From assembly GCA_902588315.1 (NCBI GenBank), contig CACIOP010000003.1, forward strand, positions 33,329 to 97,328: a DNA stretch of 64,000 nucleotides, in the 5' to 3' direction. The notes beneath the pieces were generated by a model. The model had not been told where the DNA came from. It saw nothing but the letters and a program-made list of their open reading frames with translations, and made no database searches. Positions 9,897 through 27,810 of the stretch are shown here, piece after piece. How positions within the stretch are numbered: position 1 is the first letter of the stretch; each line of letters begins with the position of its first letter. Source of the stretch: an uncultured Pelagibacteraceae bacterium (GTDB lineage: Bacteria > Pseudomonadota > Alphaproteobacteria > Pelagibacterales > Pelagibacteraceae). Both the position numbers and the translations under genes were made by a program.

Positions 9897-10364
9897 ATGT
9901 TTTTATCTACTTACGAGAACAAATTAGACAAAAAAGGGAGGGTTTCTGTGCCTGCTAGTTTCAGGTCATATTTATCAAACCTAGGTTACAATGGTGTAAT
10001 CTGTTATCCTTCCTTTAATAATTCTTCAATAGAGGCATGTTCTCAAGATAGAATTGAAAAAATTTCCTCAGCAATAGACTCTTTAAATCCTTTTGAGGAA
10101 AAAAGAGATTACTTTGCAACATCAATATTGGCAGAAAGTACAAATTTACAGTTTGATAGTGAAGGTAGAATTTCACTTTCATCAAAATTATTAAAACATG
10201 CAAAAATAAAAAATAGCATGTTGTTTGTTGGTCAAGGTCGAACGTTTCAGATTTGGGAACCAACAGCATTTGAAAAATTTAAGATATCAGCAAGAAAAAA
10301 AGCAAATATAAATCGAGCGGGTCTTAAATGGGAAAAACAGTTAAACAACAATGAGGGGAAATAA
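9897..10364 (+). CDS. mraZ: MraZ transcriptional regulator
   Basis: [21 protein letters not shown] and [27 protein letters not shown] AbrB-like repeats; heads the dcw cluster. Confidence 0.95.
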
Positions 10365-10365
10365 G

Positions 10366-11847
10366 ATGACAATTAACTTTAAAGCACCAGAAATTAAAGA
10401 ATTACAGCCACGACTACTTGTATTAGGTGTGGGTGGAGCAGGTGGAAATGCTATTAACGAAATGATAGAAAATAATCTGCAAGGAGTAGAATTTATCGCA
10501 GTAAACACGGACGCACAAGATTTAAAGTTAAGTAAAGCAAAAACAAGAATTCAAATTGGTTTAAATTTAACAAAAGGTTTAGGTGCAGGAGCAAAACTTG
10601 ATATCGGTCAAGCAGCTGCTGATGAATCTTTAAATGAAATTGTAAATACACTTCAAGGTGCAAATATGGTGTTTATAGCAGCTGGTATGGGTGGTGGAAC
10701 GGGCACTGGTGCTGCTCATGTTATCGCAAGAGCTGCAAAAGAATTAAATATACTAACTGTAGGTGTTGTGACTCTTCCATTTTTATATGAAGGCCCCTCT
10801 AGAATGAGAAGAGCACAACAAGGTTTGGAGGAATTAAGAAAACATGTTGACACAATAATTGTTATCCCAAATCAAAATTTATTTAAAATAGCGAATGAAC
10901 AAACAACTTTTGAAGAATCTTTTAATCTTTCAAATAATGTTTTGATGCATGGCGTTCAAAGTATTACAGATCTAATGGTTAGACCTGGTTTGATCAACTT
11001 AGATTTTGCAGATGTTGAAACTGTAATGGCAGCCATGGGTAAAGCTATGATGGGAACGGGTGAAGCTGAAGGTGAAGGTAGAGCTCTTAAAGCAGCAGAG
11101 ATGGCAATTAGTAATCCATTAATAGATGACTACACTTTAAAAGGTGCAAAAGGATTACTGGTAAATATCACTGGAGGTAAAGATCTGAAACTCTTTGAGG
11201 TTGATGAAGCTGTTAATAAAGTTAGAGCGGAAGTTGATCCTGAAGCTGAGTTAATTATTGGTGCTATAACTGATACAGAGCTAGATGGCAAGATGAGAGT
11301 TTCAATTGTTGCAACCTCATTAGATGGTCAACAACCTGAGTCAAAATCCGTGGTAAATATGGTTCATAGAATTCAAAACCGTAATCCTGGTTATTCAGAT
11401 TTTTCAAACATGGGTTCCTCTCAATCCTTTAATTTTTCAAACTCAACAGCATCAAACCCTGTTACACATGGCGCTAATGCTTTGAAGCTTGAAAATGAGA
11501 TTGTCCAAGAACAACAAACTGAAAGCTCTCATAATCAAATGATGAATGAAGAAGTTATTCAAAATTCTAGTATGGAAAGTGAAAGTATAGTTGAAGACAG
11601 TTCAGTTAATGAAATGGAAAAATCTTTTGCTCAAGAAGCTGTGGAAGCTTCCCATGAAGATCATCAAGATATTAACAACGAACAAGAAATCTCTAATGAT
11701 TTAAAAGAATTCGGAGTTGATTCAGATGCACCAGATTTATTTAGTTCAGAATCTGATAATTCAAGACCTGAAGATTTATTGACTTCAGATGAAAAGGAAG
11801 AAGATGATCTTGAGATACCAGCATTCTTAAGAAGACAAAAAAATTAA
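10366..11847 (+). CDS. ftsZ: Cell division protein FtsZ
   Basis: Tubulin signature [24 protein letters not shown]-terminal conserved peptide [14 protein letters not shown] at 10366 preferred (AGGGG upstream); ORF track opens at 10351. Confidence 0.98.
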
Positions 11848-11865: not shown

Positions 11866-12876
11866 ATGGACGCCACCATAGTACCAAAAATGCAAAAGCA
11901 TTATCCGGTACTGCTAAAAGAAATTATTAGCGTTATTTCCCCTCAACATGGTGGCACATTTATTGATTGTACTTTCGGTCAAGGTGGTTATTCCAAAAAA
12001 ATTTTAGATTTTAAAAATACAAAAGTAATAGCTATTGATAGAGACAAAGAAAGTGAAAAAATTGCTTATCAATTTAAAGAAAACTTTGAAGATAGATTTG
12101 TTTTTAAAAATATAAAATTTAGTCAATTAAGTAATTTAAAGCTCAAAAATGAAAATGTAAGAGGTGTAATTTTTGATCTTGGTTACTCTTATACTCAAAT
12201 AAAAGATCCACAAAAAGGATTGTCATTCTCTGATAGTGGTAAATTAAATATGCAGCTCGGATTAAATAGTTATTCAGCAGAGGATGTAATCAATAAACTC
12301 GATGAAAAAGAATTAGAAAGGATTTTTAAATTTTTTGGAGATGAAAAAGAAGCAAAATTTATTGTACGAAATATCATAAAAGAAAGATCAAAAAATCAAA
12401 TTGATACCAAATCTTTAGTTAAAATTATTGACAAATCAAAAAAAAGAAAAAATTTTAAAGTTCATAATGCGACCAAAGTTTTTCAGGCACTTAGAATATT
12501 TGTAAATAAAGAAATAAGTGAATTAATTTATGGGCTTATTAATGCAACAAAAGTTTTAAAAAAAGGAGGCATTTTAGGTGTAGTTACATTTCATTCTTTA
12601 GAAGATAAAATAGTAAAATATTTTTTTAAAAGTCTCTCTGAAAATAAAAGTATTTCACGATATAGCCCAGTTATTGAACAAGAAGATACATTGTTTAACT
12701 TAATTCAAAAAAAACCAATTACACCCTCAGATGAGGAGGTGAATGAAAATCCACCATCTAGATCTGCTAAATTTAGATATGCAATTAAAAAAAAAGATTT
12801 TTATAATTTTGATACTGATATAGAGGAACAATTTAGAAATTACATTGAAATTGAAAATTATGGAGAAAAACTGTGA
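11866..12876 (+). CDS. rsmH: 16S rRNA m4C1402 methyltransferase RsmH (MraW)
   Basis: [67 protein letters not shown]. Confidence 0.95.
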
Positions 12877-13178
12877 AAAAGTTTGCTTTAGCAGTGGTGA
12901 TTTTTTTTTTAGTACTCTCAACTGCAATAATAAAAAATACGACTAAACAGATTGAAGATGAAATATTTACGGTAAAAGAGAATATTAGAATTTTAAAGAC
13001 TGAATTTGAAAATGTATCTTTGGAGCATGATTATTTAAGTTCCTCAGAAAGGTTACTTGAATATCAGTCTCAGTATTTTGAGGATGAGTTGTTTCAAAAA
13101 AATATAAACGACATAAGAGTCTACAATATTTTAAATGATGGAAATAAAATCCAAAATTTTAAAATTATTAAAGAGTAA
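12873..13178 (+). CDS. ftsL: FtsL-like division protein
   Basis: Small bitopic coiled-coil protein between rsmH and ftsI. Confidence 0.7.
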
Positions 13179-14871: not shown

Positions 14872-17715
14872 ATGCTTCTAGGAAACTACTTTCATAACAT
14901 AAATAAAAATTATAAAAATTTTTCTTTTTCAGGAATTTCATTTGACACGAATACTATAAAAAAAAATAATATTTTTTTTGCAATCAAAGGAAATAGCATT
15001 GATGGTAATAAATTTATTCCTAAAGCAATAAAAAAAGGATCTAAAATTATTGTAACCGAAAGAAAAACAAATCAATTCCAAAATGGAATTTTGTATATTC
15101 ATACAAATAATGTAAGAAAATTGTTAGCTGAAACTGCTTTTAAAATTTATAATAAAAAACCAAAAAATTTAATTGCAGTTACTGGAACAAATGGAAAATC
15201 ATCAGTTGCAGATTTTTATTATCAAATTTTAAAATTAAATAATAAAAAAGGCGCTTCAATTGGTACATTAGGTATTAAATCAAAAAGTATTAATTTGAAT
15301 TTATCTAATACTACAATAGATCCAATAAAATTGGCTAAAATATTAAGCAAGTTAAAAAATCAAAAAATAGAAAATGTAATTATGGAAGCCTCAAGTCATG
15401 GTTTAAAGCAAAATAGATTAGATGGTTTAAAGTTTAATTCAGGTATATTTACCAATCTATCCCAGGATCATCTTGATTATCATAAAAATTTAAAAAACTA
15501 TTTAAAAGCAAAACTTTATTTATTTGAAAACCTAATCACAAAAAGAGGAAATGTAATTACAGATCAATTAATACCTGAGTTTAGAAAAATAAAAAAAATT
15601 GTAATTAATAAGAAATTAAAATTGCATACAATTAATGATCAGAAAAATAATCTAAAGCTTTTATCTCATAATTTTAAAGGAGAGGTTCAATTTCTTAAAA
15701 TTAAATTAAATAGTACAATAAGGGATATAAATTTAAATTTAATTGGAAAAATACAATTAAAAAATGTTTTAATGGCAATAATTGCAGCAAAATATAGCGG
15801 TATTAGTTTAGATAAAATTTTAAATACAATTCCAAAATTAAAAGCAGTTGAGGGAAGGTTTGAAAAAATTGGTAAAATTAAAAATCAATCAAAAGTAATT
15901 CTTGATTATGCTCATACGCCTGATGCTTTAAAAACTTGTCTTTTAAATCTTAGAGAACAATTTCCTAATAAAACAATCACAGTTCTATTCGGTTGTGGGG
16001 GAAATAGGGACCAAAATAAAAGATCTAAAATGGGAAAAATAGCTAGTGATTTTGCAGATAGTATAATTCTTACAAATGATAATCCTAGATTTGAAAATCC
16101 TCAAAAAATAAGAAGAGATATAAAAAAGGGAATTAAAAAAAAGAGAATTATTGAAATATCTAATAGAGCAATAGCAATAACACAAGCTATTCATAATTTG
16201 AATTCAGGTGATATCTTGTTAGTTGCTGGTAAAGGCCATGAGAAAACGCAAGATATTGGAAATAAGAAAATTTTCTTTTCAGACAGAAAAATAATTCTAA
16301 ATGCTATTAAGAAAAAAAATATCAATTTATCAGATAATTTAAAATTAAATGTGGTTAAAGAGGCAGCTAAAATTAAAAAATTATCTCAGTACACACCTTT
16401 AAAACAAGCAAGAATTAATTCACAGGAGGTCACTAAAAATGATATTTTTTTTGCTATTAAAGGAAAAAAAAATGATGGTAATAAATATGTTGCACAATCA
16501 TTCAATAGAAAAGCTGCTTTGGCTGTAGTAAATAAAATTCAAAATAAATTAGATAAAAGTCGTCAGATCAAAGTAAATAATACTTTAAAATTCCTAACAG
16601 ATATTTCAAAAACTTTTAGAAAAAGCATTGATACAAATATAGTAGCTATTACAGGTAGTTGTGGCAAAACTACACTTAAAGAATTACTGGGCAATATATT
16701 AAGTAAAATTTCGAACGTAAGCATTTCTCCAAAATCTTATAACAATAAATTTGGAGTTCCTTTGAGTCTTTTTAATTTAAAACCAAATGATGAATTTGGA
16801 ATTTTAGAAGTTGGAATGGATAAAAAAGGTGAAATTGATTATTTATCAAAATTAATAGAACCAGATGTTGGAGTAATAACAAATGTAAATTATGCACATG
16901 CTAAAAATTTTAAAAATATCAAACAAATTGCTTTGGCAAAATCTGAAATTATTAATAACATAAAACCTAATGGTTATGTAGTATTGAATGCAGATGATAA
17001 TTTTTTTCAATTACATAAAAAAATTGCCAAAGAAAAGAAAATTAAAATTATTTCTTTTGGCATTAAAAGTCAGAGCGCAGACATTAAATTAATTAACATA
17101 AAGGCTTTTGGAAAAAGATTTAAAATATATATTAAATTAAATAATAAAAAAAAGCATTTCATATTATCAAACGATTTTCAAAACAATATATACAATGTAC
17201 TTTCTGCTTTAGCAGTTATTAGCATTTATAAAAATATATTTAAATTCAATGAAAAAATTTTTCTCAATTTTAAAATTCCTGGGGGAAGAGGAGACCATTC
17301 TGTGGTTAAAATTGAGAATAAAAAAATTAATTTAATCGATCAAAGTTATAATTCAAATCCGTTATCATTAAAATCAGCAATAAAAAATTTTGATAAAATA
17401 AACTTAAAAAAATCAAATAAATATTTATTAATTGGTGACATGTTGGAGCTTGGTAATCATTCTAAAAAACTTCATAAATCTATTTCCCCAATAATAAATC
17501 AAACCAAGATAGATAAGGTATTTGTAAAAGGAAAATTGGCTTCAATAATATTTGAAAATATCTCAAAAGGTAAAAGAGGGAGGATTTTATCAAACAAATC
17601 TCAAATTGTTGAATTTATTAGAAAAGATTTAAATAATAATGATTATTTAATGATTAAAGCCTCACTTGCGACAGGATTCAACGACATAGTGAAAGATCTG
17701 AAAGGATTACATTAA
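14872..17715 (+). CDS. murEF: Fused MurE-MurF bifunctional Mur ligase
   Basis: Two Mur-ligase modules in one 947-aa frame: VTGTNGKSSVADFYYQ ... DNPRFENP (meso-DAP MurE) and ITGSCGKTTLKELLGN ... DQSYNSNPLSLKSAI (MurF). Confidence 0.92.
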   Translation: MLLGNYFHNINKNYKNFSFSGISFDTNTIKKNNIFFAIKGNSIDGNKFIPKAIKKGSKIIVTERKTNQFQNGILYIHTNNVRKLLAETAFKIYNKKPKNLIAVTGTNGKSSVADFYYQILKLNNKKGASIGTLGIKSKSINLNLSNTTIDPIKLAKILSKLKNQKIENVIMEASSHGLKQNRLDGLKFNSGIFTNLSQDHLDYHKNLKNYLKAKLYLFENLITKRGNVITDQLIPEFRKIKKIVINKKLKLHTINDQKNNLKLLSHNFKGEVQFLKIKLNSTIRDINLNLIGKIQLKNVLMAIIAAKYSGISLDKILNTIPKLKAVEGRFEKIGKIKNQSKVILDYAHTPDALKTCLLNLREQFPNKTITVLFGCGGNRDQNKRSKMGKIASDFADSIILTNDNPRFENPQKIRRDIKKGIKKKRIIEISNRAIAITQAIHNLNSGDILLVAGKGHEKTQDIGNKKIFFSDRKIILNAIKKKNINLSDNLKLNVVKEAAKIKKLSQYTPLKQARINSQEVTKNDIFFAIKGKKNDGNKYVAQSFNRKAALAVVNKIQNKLDKSRQIKVNNTLKFLTDISKTFRKSIDTNIVAITGSCGKTTLKELLGNILSKISNVSISPKSYNNKFGVPLSLFNLKPNDEFGILEVGMDKKGEIDYLSKLIEPDVGVITNVNYAHAKNFKNIKQIALAKSEIINNIKPNGYVVLNADDNFFQLHKKIAKEKKIKIISFGIKSQSADIKLINIKAFGKRFKIYIKLNNKKKHFILSNDFQNNIYNVLSALAVISIYKNIFKFNEKIFLNFKIPGGRGDHSVVKIENKKINLIDQSYNSNPLSLKSAIKNFDKINLKKSNKYLLIGDMLELGNHSKKLHKSISPIINQTKIDKVFVKGKLASIIFENISKGKRGRILSNKSQIVEFIRKDLNNNDYLMIKASLATGFNDIVKDLKGLH

Positions 17716-24565: not shown

Positions 24566-25480
24566 TTGAAAAAAAAAGTACTTATAATATCAGGTGGAAT
24601 TTCTAAAGAGAGATTAATTAGTCTTGATACAGGAAATCAAGTTTTTAAAGAATTAAAAAAAAACGGTTATAGAGTTAAAATTTCTGAACCAGATAATTAT
24701 TTAGAAAAAAATATAAAAATGTTTAAGCCGAATGTGATCTTTAATGCTTTACACGGTCAATTTGGAGAGGATGGATATATTCAAACCATATTGGACAGGT
24801 TTAAAATTCCATACACTCATTCAAGTGCAATAGCATCTTCAACAGCTATGGATAAGGAAATTTCAAAAAAACTATTCATTAAAAATAAAATAAAAACCCC
24901 AAAATTTTTTACATATTCTTATGACATTACAAAATCTAATTTAATAAAGAAAATCAGCAAAAACTTAAGATTTCCAGTTGTAATTAAACCTTTGAATGAA
25001 GGCTCGAGTGTAAATGTCTACATAAGTAGTAAAAAGACTCTAGATAAAATTCTTTACAAACTGAAAGTTTATAAAAAAGTATTAATTGAGGAATTTATTG
25101 GAGGAAGAGAAATACAAGTTGCGATTATGGGTGATAAAAAATTAGGAGCAATTGAATTGAAACCTAAAAGAAAATTTTATGATTACAAAGCAAAATATGA
25201 CTCAAAATCTAAAACTCAACATATTATCCCTGTAGATTTGCCTAAATCTAAATTTGATAAGGTAATGGATATAGCTTTCAAAGCTCATAAAATTATTGGC
25301 TGCAGAGGAGTAACTAGGTCAGATTTTAAATTTTTCAATGGAAAATTTTATTTACTAGAACTTAACACTCAGCCTGGAATGACTAAATTATCATTAGTAC
25401 CAGAAATAGCATTGTACAGAGGTATAAGCTTTTTAAAATTAATTGAATGGATGTTGAAAGATGCATCAAAGAAAAAGTAA
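24566..25480 (+). CDS. ddl: D-alanine--D-alanine ligase
   Basis: HGQFGEDGYIQTILD, PVVIKPLNEGSSVNV, RSDFKF, LELNTQPGMT; TTG start. Confidence 0.94.
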   Translation: MKKKVLIISGGISKERLISLDTGNQVFKELKKNGYRVKISEPDNYLEKNIKMFKPNVIFNALHGQFGEDGYIQTILDRFKIPYTHSSAIASSTAMDKEISKKLFIKNKIKTPKFFTYSYDITKSNLIKKISKNLRFPVVIKPLNEGSSVNVYISSKKTLDKILYKLKVYKKVLIEEFIGGREIQVAIMGDKKLGAIELKPKRKFYDYKAKYDSKSKTQHIIPVDLPKSKFDKVMDIAFKAHKIIGCRGVTRSDFKFFNGKFYLLELNTQPGMTKLSLVPEIALYRGISFLKLIEWMLKDASKKK

Positions 25481-26132
25481 AAAAATTCTAATTTATTTTT
25501 TTTTATTAATAATTGCTTCGTCAATTGGTAACAACACAATCAATAATTATAAATTTAAAAAAATAGAAAATATTAATATTTTTGGATTAGATAAAAAAAA
25601 TAATCAAATTCTTTCGAATAAGTTAAAAAATTTGAGTTTAGGAAATATTTTTTTTGTTAATAAAAAAAAAATTGAAAAATTAATTAATTCAAACTCTTTA
25701 ATTGAGAGCTATGTAGTATTTAAAGAATATCCATCTACATTAAATATTAAAATTGATAAAACGAATTTTTTTGCAAAAATAAACGATAATGGTAAAAATT
25801 ATCTCGTTGGATCTAATGGTAAATTAACCCTAATTAACTCTGGTTACAATCAATTACCTTATATTTTTGGCAAACCTAAAGTTGAAGAATTTTTAAAATT
25901 TAAAAAAATTATAGATAGGTCTAAATTTTCATATAATGAAATAAAAAATATATATTTTTTTCCCTCAAAAAGATGGGACTTAAAGTTTCATGACAATATT
26001 TTATTAAAACTACCAAATAATTTAACACAAGAAACTTTGGATAATTTGTACAATTTTTTAGAAAATTATAATGGAGAAAATTTTAATATTATTGATGCAA
26101 GATTAGAAAACAAGATTGTTTTAGATGAATAA
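25461..26132 (+). CDS. ftsQ: FtsQ-like POTRA division protein
   Basis: Short N-terminal TM then POTRA-like domain (FKKIENINIFGLDKKNNQIL...ESYVVFKEYPSTLNIKI); position between ddl and ftsA. Confidence 0.78.
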   Translation: MHQRKSKKILIYFFLLIIASSIGNNTINNYKFKKIENINIFGLDKKNNQILSNKLKNLSLGNIFFVNKKKIEKLINSNSLIESYVVFKEYPSTLNIKIDKTNFFAKINDNGKNYLVGSNGKLTLINSGYNQLPYIFGKPKVEEFLKFKKIIDRSKFSYNEIKNIYFFPSKRWDLKFHDNILLKLPNNLTQETLDNLYNFLENYNGENFNIIDARLENKIVLDE

Positions 26133-26826
26133 AGAGAATGAATTAAAATATTACTTAAGTGTTTCCCCAAATAAATATGGAATATATTTGTTTGATACAA
26201 AAAATTTAAAAAATCTATATAAAGAGGAAATTATCTTAAATAATGATACAAACTATCAAAATCATGATGAATTAAAAAAATTTCTTGATGATAATATATT
26301 TAAAATTGAAAAATTGAGCGGAAAATTCATAGAAAATATATTTCTTATACTTGAAGATAAAAAAATTTTTAATCTAGAAATTGGAATTAAAAAAAAAAAT
26401 TACAATATTTCAGTCACAAAAGAATATTTAGAAAATTCACTTGTTGAAGCTAAAGATTTGTTTAGAGAGAGTTATCACAACCAAGAAATTATTCATATGA
26501 TAGTTAATAAATATTTTATTAATGGTAAGACACTTTTATTATTTGAAGAAAACCTAAAATGTGAAAACTTTGCTTTGGAAGTTAATTTTAAATCTATCTC
26601 AAATGATATCATTTATGATCTAAATAAGATTTTAGAAAATTATCAAATAAAAATATCAAAATATTTAGATGGAAGTTATGTCAAAAAAAATTTTAAGAAT
26701 GATATTGAGCTATCAGAAATGTCTTATAGGATTTTGTGCGGTCATAATCAAAATGAAGTTATGTTTGTAACAAAAAACACTAAAAAGTTAGCTTTTTTTG
26801 AAAAATTTTTTCAACTATTTAGCTAA
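26125..26826 (+). CDS. ftsA: Reduced FtsA-like protein (SHS2/1C region plus C-terminal amphipathic helix)
   Basis: Position after ftsQ and before lpxC; FtsA 1C-like pattern ISVTKEYLENSLVEAKDLFRESYHNQEIIHMIVNKYFINGK...ALEVNFKSIS; only 233 aa; ends KKLAFFEKFFQLFS. Confidence 0.65.
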   Translation: MNKENELKYYLSVSPNKYGIYLFDTKNLKNLYKEEIILNNDTNYQNHDELKKFLDDNIFKIEKLSGKFIENIFLILEDKKIFNLEIGIKKKNYNISVTKEYLENSLVEAKDLFRESYHNQEIIHMIVNKYFINGKTLLLFEENLKCENFALEVNFKSISNDIIYDLNKILENYQIKISKYLDGSYVKKNFKNDIELSEMSYRILCGHNQNEVMFVTKNTKKLAFFEKFFQLFS

Positions 26827-26889: not shown

Positions 26890-27810
26890 GTGTCTTATTT
26901 AACTCAAAAAACCATCAAAAATAATGTGAGCTTCAGCGGCATTGCCCTTCATAGTGGACTAAGTGTAAATGTGTGTATTAAGCCCGCTGAGCCTAATTTT
27001 GGAATTGTATTTAAAAGAGTAGATCTAAAAGAAAACAATATAGTTTATCCAAATTTTATGAATGTAAGTAATACATCTTTGAACACAACAGTCGAAAATG
27101 AATCTGGGGTAAAAGTTTCAACAATAGAGCATTTAATGGGTGCATTATTTGGATTAGGAATTGATAATGCTTTGATTGAAATAGACAATGAAGAAGTTCC
27201 AATATTGGATGGTTCAGCAAAGGTCTTTATTGAAACGATTTTAGCAGTTGGTTTTGAAATTAGTACCTCACCAATTAAAATTATAAAAATAAATAAAGAA
27301 GTAGTATTTTCAGAAGGAGAAAGGTTTATTAAAATTAAGCCATCTACACTTAATCTTGAAATTGATTTTGAACTTAAATATGAAAATGAGGTAATTGGAA
27401 ATCAAAGAAATAAAGTAAAAGTTTTTGAAGATAATCTGACAAACGTTTATAATTCAAGAACATATTGTTTGTTTGAGGATATAGAATTAATAAAACAAAA
27501 AGGGCTTGCTAAAGGTGGCAGTTTAGAAAATGCCATAGTGGTTAAGGGTAAAGAAATTCTAAATACTGAAGGTTTAAGAAATGATAAAGAATTTGTTAAT
27601 CACAAAATACTAGATTGTATAGGAGATCTTTATACTTCAGGCTATAGAATAATAGCTAGTATTGAATGTTCTCAGGGTGGTCATTATCTAACAAATCAAT
27701 TGCTTAGAAAAGTCTTTGAAAGCAAAGATAATTTTTCTATTTTAGAAATTAAAGAAAAAAACCTACCACACACACTAATAAATAGAAACATACTTAAATC
27801 TATAGCCTAA
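26890..27810 (+). CDS. lpxC: UDP-3-O-acyl-GlcNAc deacetylase LpxC
   Basis: SFSGIALHSGLSVNV, VSTIEHLMGALFGLGIDNALIEID, PILDGSAKVFIE, NHKILDCIGDLY, GGHYLTNQLL; GTG start. Confidence 0.96.
   Translation: MSYLTQKTIKNNVSFSGIALHSGLSVNVCIKPAEPNFGIVFKRVDLKENNIVYPNFMNVSNTSLNTTVENESGVKVSTIEHLMGALFGLGIDNALIEIDNEEVPILDGSAKVFIETILAVGFEISTSPIKIIKINKEVVFSEGERFIKIKPSTLNLEIDFELKYENEVIGNQRNKVKVFEDNLTNVYNSRTYCLFEDIELIKQKGLAKGGSLENAIVVKGKEILNTEGLRNDKEFVNHKILDCIGDLYTSGYRIIASIECSQGGHYLTNQLLRKVFESKDNFSILEIKEKNLPHTLINRNILKSIA

Follow-up and report, generated by a model that had tools for sequence, protein, structure and literature searches.

In the usual view, FtsA is an actin homologue that forms ATP-dependent polymers, and these polymers anchor FtsZ and control the synthesis of the septal wall. 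The site that receives the C-terminal tail of FtsZ lies in subdomain 2B, as established for the FtsA of Thermotoga maritima, and the same tail has other bacterial partners, including ClpX, ZapD, SlmA and FzlC. The FtsA protofilament is built by the contact between IIA and IIB while IC makes lateral contacts, the tail of FtsN binds in the cleft between IA and IC, and membrane binding is through an amphipathic helix at the C-terminus; in PilM, a bitopic protein docks with its short cytoplasmic tail into the IA–IC cleft (PMC7613929). Less oligomeric FtsA has been proposed to free IC for recruiting late proteins (PMC5508204). Here, we analysed the ftsA locus in a 64,000-nucleotide stretch of DNA (referred to as the window) from an uncultured bacterium of the Pelagibacteraceae, in which a shortened FtsA appeared to be encoded. 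In the open-access papers searched, we found no earlier account of a shortened SAR11 FtsA.

A short gene in the ftsA slot of the dcw cluster

A first-pass annotation, made from the letters of the window, had pointed to a gene of only 233 codons in the slot between ftsQ and lpxC, and the open reading frame in question was confirmed there (mini-ftsA; Table 1). Its start overlaps the 3′ end of ftsQ by 8 nt, and the order ftsQ–mini-ftsA–lpxC corresponds to the position of ftsA in the dcw cluster. Further upstream, and in the same direction, lie ftsZ, rsmH, a small membrane ORF at the ftsL position, ftsI, a fused Mur ligase, mraY, murD, ftsW, murG, murC, murB and ddlB. This neighbourhood is that of the dcw cluster, and not the type IV pilus or type II secretion context that would mark a PilM or GspL. 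The Mur ligase (a 947-aa ORF at 14872-17715 of the window, in which the Mur-ligase middle and C-terminal domains each occur twice) would, by size and position, be a murE–murF fusion, and the ORF in the ftsL place (101 aa, GTG start, 12873-13178, between rsmH and ftsI) has an N-terminal hydrophobic stretch.

Table 1. Window positions of mini-ftsA, its predicted parts and the dcw genes used as landmarks.
Feature	Position	Strand	Basis
ftsZ, with intact C-terminal peptide EIPAFLRRQ	10351..11847	+	
ftsQ	25461..26132	+	Pfam POTRA_1 and FtsQ_DivIB_C
mini-ftsA, 233 aa, FtsA minus IIA and IIB	26125..26826	+	ORF, profile homology, locus and size in 44 genomes, dN/dS
IA first part, residues 1–79	26125..26361	+	alignment with full-length congeners; approximate boundary
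IC / SHS2_FTSA, residues ~80–157	26362..26595	+	profile alignment to 7q6d and Pfam; approximate boundary
IA second part, ending at the deletion point, residues ~158–193	26596..26703	+	hhalign to residue ~187 of full-length relatives
Junction, ~140 aa (IIA and IIB) missing versus the full-length FtsA of G107	26703..26704	+	alignment
Last IA helix, residues ~194–215, IELSEMSYRILCG...	26704..26769	+	alignment with the final ~41 residues of full-length relatives
Hydrophobic/amphipathic segment at the C-terminus, KKLAFFEKFFQLFS; candidate membrane-targeting helix	26782..26823	+	kept in minis and full-length FtsA
lpxC, syntenic anchor	26890..27810	+	Pfam LpxC, 305 bits

To place this gene among its relatives, the gene immediately 5′ of lpxC was extracted from 147 genomes of the order wherever the contig permitted. 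Within the window's genus, complete short versions of 220–236 aa (referred to as minis) occupy the ftsA locus in 44 genomes and complete full-length FtsAs of 368–391 aa in 22, while a few further copies are interrupted by contig ends; in other genera of the order, FtsA measures ~376–410 aa. The gene lies directly 5′ of lpxC in all complete relatives extracted, and the slot was occupied wherever the interval upstream of lpxC was fully sequenced. Even shorter copies of 96–170 aa, seen in four genomes (G030, G066, G128 and G141), proved to be cut by contig ends and are no real shorter forms. Twelve close mini relatives of the window protein, in other Pelagibacteraceae genomes, share 56–95% identity with it.

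Among 289 genomes of Alphaproteobacteria, surveyed with limited sensitivity for such a group, no second group with a mini-FtsA was found. The cut-off for full-length FtsA was exceeded in 264 of them, and a recheck of 21 low-scoring genomes gave an FtsA-type SHS2 match in six, all in frames of 396–475 aa, and none in 15. In three single-contig genomes, i.e., G324 and G399 (Alphaproteobacteria, family code f92) and G189, neither a full FtsA nor an FtsA-type SHS2 was found, G189 being without any match to TIGR01174.

Homology to FtsA

Searched on its own, the window protein matches the ftsA profile TIGR01174 over residues 51–179 (E = 0.006) with 15.7 bits against a curated cut-off of 175.85 bits, and a Pfam search with this single protein returned nothing reliable, SHS2_FTSA included. 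Across 17 members of the mini family, TIGR01174 matches 13 (best E = 2e-13) and SHS2_FTSA matches 10 (best 1.6e-6). An HMM built from 17 diverse minis (A3) aligned to residues 54–195 of E. coli FtsA (PDB 7q6d; E = 6e-5) and also matched two other FtsAs, with no other significant match in the PDB; a profile of close relatives alone (A1) had no PDB match, so that the more diverse A3 was needed. The 1C/SHS2 pattern of FtsA that the first-pass annotation had read from the letters is thus borne out by the family matches to SHS2_FTSA and 7q6d.

In profile–profile comparison with hhalign, the minis aligned to the full-length FtsA of their own genus with 99.9% probability, to that of other genera with 98.3% and to that of the sister family with 93%, versus less than 1% for five unrelated dcw proteins taken as control. 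Against a single canonical alphaproteobacterial FtsA, used without a family alignment, the probability was only 5%. Full-length SAR11 FtsA itself matches FtsA structures with E = 4e-48.

The SHS2/1C fold is also consistent with AlphaFold models, which are of low confidence (pLDDT 60–62). For the model of the window protein (pLDDT 59.6, pTM 0.38), Foldseek placed T. maritima FtsA first (E = 4e-4), and for that of a 57%-identical homologue (pLDDT 61.9, pTM 0.57), the better of the two, the best 18 matches in the PDB were all FtsA (E from 7e-8 to 9e-6), followed by PilM and then GspL/EpsL. The Foldseek matches include PDB 4a2a, the complex of T. maritima FtsA with the FtsZ tail. At the level of sequence, then, mini-ftsA is an FtsA orthologue by descent, homologous over IA and IC, and we read it as the native ftsA of a Pelagibacter (SAR11) species from which the segment for IIA and IIB has been deleted.

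Parts kept and lost

Residues 1–193 align to IA and IC and end just before the phosphate-2 strand of IIA, after which the alignment skips to the final ~40 residues, i.e., the C-terminal IA helix and the hydrophobic tail. The 2A/2B nucleotide-binding half, which had been suspected to be absent, is indeed missing (~140 aa relative to full-length relatives, by alignment), and the phosphate-2 and adenosine motifs fall within the deleted part. The phosphate-1 loop had likewise been called replaced: DxGS gives way to SVSPNK in the window protein, and its Asp is found in all 22 full-length FtsAs of the genus and in none of the 44 minis. Two earlier statements needed adjusting. The loss is real, but it does not extend to most of the actin fold; since one RNase-H-like half (IA) is retained together with IC, about half of the fold is gone. 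Similarly, the hydrophobic C-terminal helix is kept as described, but the protein does not jump straight to it, as the last IA helix (~194–212) precedes it too.

The stretch AFFEKFFQLFS has a hydrophobic moment of 0.53, a value reached by 3% of shuffles, while that of the C-terminal 14-mer is not unusual versus shuffles; the predicted amphipathic character of this segment is modest. The IC core and the C-terminus are conserved across divergent mini species, whose protein length is nearly constant.

A different kind of erosion is seen in genera g5 and g6 of the same family (e.g., L150, L151, L152 and L153), where FtsA (~376–399 aa) has kept domain II but lost all three nucleotide motifs and would be a putative pseudo-ATPase. 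SAR11 bacteria thus have FtsAs with ATP-site motifs, with eroded motifs and with a deleted domain side by side.

One deletion or several

A tree built from six other dcw proteins (2557 columns) splits the minis into three groups, separated by full-length groups. A single mini clade is rejected on this tree (AU p = 4e-11), and support is 100/100 for the placement of one full-length group (G107, G011 and G024) between mini groups. Provided that a lost domain cannot be regained and that inheritance is vertical, at least three deletions are implied. One reading falls only just short of an even bet in our estimate: within this one genus, three or more independent deletions removed IIA and IIB at nearly the same point and left an IA–IC membrane adaptor. 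In these cells, FtsA could then do without ATPase activity, polymer formation and the known site for the FtsZ tail, and an undescribed contact would tether the Z-ring.

The FtsA gene tree (234 shared columns) fails to confirm repeated deletion and thereby makes an exchange of ftsA between lineages possible. A single mini clade is not rejected by these columns (AU p = 0.29–0.40), the complete dcw topology is rejected (p = 7e-6), and a constraint on the deep backbone alone is mildly disfavoured, with a borderline p of 0.017. All three results would suit a single deletion that was scattered by ftsA exchange between Pelagibacter lineages. This is a credible alternative, if one that we tend to doubt: it conflicts with both dcw-tree results above, the replacement must have hit ftsA within the cluster yet spared its neighbours, and the FtsA tree is not only short and saturated but also prone to long-branch artefacts. 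The three mini clades of the dcw tree thus reflect either repeated loss, or fewer losses together with gene exchange.

The FtsZ tail, possible partners and a proposed function

The first-pass annotation had noted a canonical C-terminal peptide in the FtsZ of the same cluster, and this tail, EIPAFLRRQ, is invariant in the genomes of the genus that were examined (36/36 with a mini and 17/17 with a full-length FtsA). Such an invariant tail must serve some partner. ZipA and SepF, previously raised as replacement tethers, were not found by sequence profiles in 58 genomes of the order; in 16 genomes, MinC was not found by sequence profile and no FtsX scored above its cut-off. Remote FtsX-like matches were frames of 410–837 aa, by size of the permease type. 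ZapA was present in 16/16 genomes. An FtsN-like SPOR protein was not recognised in the window's genome, so that the classical partner of IC is missing or unrecognisable and its place may be taken by another membrane protein. The sole SPOR match of this genome (L254 1459-2220) lies between mltB-like and dac-like genes and belongs to an RlpA-like lipoprotein, not to FtsN.

The best explanation, to which we assign a probability of roughly 65%, is that mini-FtsA is a native FtsA without IIA and IIB that acts as a nucleotide-independent IA–IC membrane adaptor for downstream divisome proteins. It would be anchored in the membrane through its C-terminal helix, while both ATP binding and the longitudinal IIA–IIB filament contact would be impossible, making it akin to a permanently un-polymerised FtsA. 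Its IC domain and IA–IC cleft would bind the cytoplasmic parts of downstream divisome membrane proteins. Since FtsZ binding through IIB would be lost, FtsZ would be tethered either via a re-made site on mini-FtsA or via another partner of the conserved tail. The earlier idea of a non-ATPase adaptor with a moved FtsZ contact agrees with the absence of both IIA/IIB and the phosphate-1 Asp. Because the ATP-binding, FtsZ-gripping half has been lost yet the rest is under selection, the link between division ring and membrane in species with a mini probably differs from that of model bacteria.

A more specific possibility, which we regard as rather doubtful, is that mini-FtsA still tethers FtsZ directly and is the main anchor of the Z-ring, with a new IA/IC surface binding the tail. 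The identity of this tail in mini and full-length genomes would fit, as would the conserved C-terminal anchor and the SepF, ZipA, MinC and FtsX search results. However, the FtsZ-tail site of subdomain 2B is deleted, and since the tail has further partners that could explain its conservation, the latter is no proof of a contact with mini-FtsA.

Selection on the gene

Compared with its close relatives, mini-ftsA has a dN/dS of 0.12–0.23 and is under purifying selection. At the same time, ftsA evolves fast: over the retained FtsA columns, its median end branch measures 0.47 changes per column, against 0.13 for the other dcw genes, a pace that for mini-ftsA fits a relaxed function as well. One copy (L083, in the single-contig genome G026) is split by a frameshift in an A-rich stretch, either a sequencing error or real decay. 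That FtsA function is vanishing in streamlined SAR11 and that the minis are remnants on their way out is very unlikely: a stepwise loss (eroded nucleotide motifs in g5 and g6, domain loss in Pelagibacter), the fast evolution and the G026 frameshift would fit it, but the purifying selection, the 44 complete copies of near-constant length, conserved in IC core and C-terminus over divergent species, and the presence of the gene wherever a genome has the interval upstream of lpxC fully sequenced argue against it.

A second FtsA was found neither in the window's assembly, in which MreB was the only other FtsA-superfamily match identified, nor in complete single-contig relatives with minis; a PF14450 match elsewhere in the assembly is this MreB and hence not a second FtsA. 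A frameshift or assembly error, named as a caveat by the first-pass annotation, is excluded for the window gene because 44 complete copies of similar size occur in other genomes. Although the window's assembly is 83% complete, the idea of a misassembled or frameshifted normal ftsA, or of a full-length FtsA elsewhere in the genome, can be dismissed, given that the same state recurs in 44 genomes, including several that are single-contig and 99% complete, and that otherwise only MreB-type matches were found.

Significance and comparison with known systems

Pelagibacter (SAR11) is the most abundant bacterial genus of the ocean. A natural FtsA that is under selection without the nucleotide site, the longitudinal interface and the FtsZ-tail pocket would cleanly separate these functions from the remaining activity, which would require only IA, IC and the membrane helix. 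With full-length FtsA retained in close relatives, the two forms are open to comparison against an almost identical cellular background. Domain II would be a removable module, should the dcw tree be correct about several independent deletions.

With canonical FtsA (E. coli, T. maritima and V. maritimus; TIGR01174, PF14450 and PF02491), mini-FtsA shares the gene position, IA, IC, the last IA helix and the C-terminal hydrophobic helix, but it is without IIA, IIB and the phosphate-1 Asp and measures 233 instead of ~400–420 aa. The full-length FtsA of sister Pelagibacter (368–391 aa; G107, G011 and G024) has the locus and C-terminal helix in common with the minis and aligns to them over the N-terminal 185 columns (hhalign, 99.9%); unlike them, it has IIA/IIB, a DxGS-like phosphate-1 motif and a GxGS adenosine motif, its phosphate-2 motif being degenerate. 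PilM of type IV pili is, like mini-FtsA, FtsA-like with an IC domain, but retains IIA and nucleotide binding and has, to our knowledge, no membrane helix of its own. Finally, the cytoplasmic domain of GspL/EpsL (PDB 4pht and 1w97), found among the Foldseek matches, resembles mini-FtsA as a reduced membrane adaptor of the actin-like superfamily (~225 aa); it serves a different machine, i.e., type II secretion, and has both RNase-H-like halves with only IIB missing, whereas mini-FtsA retains one half and IC only.
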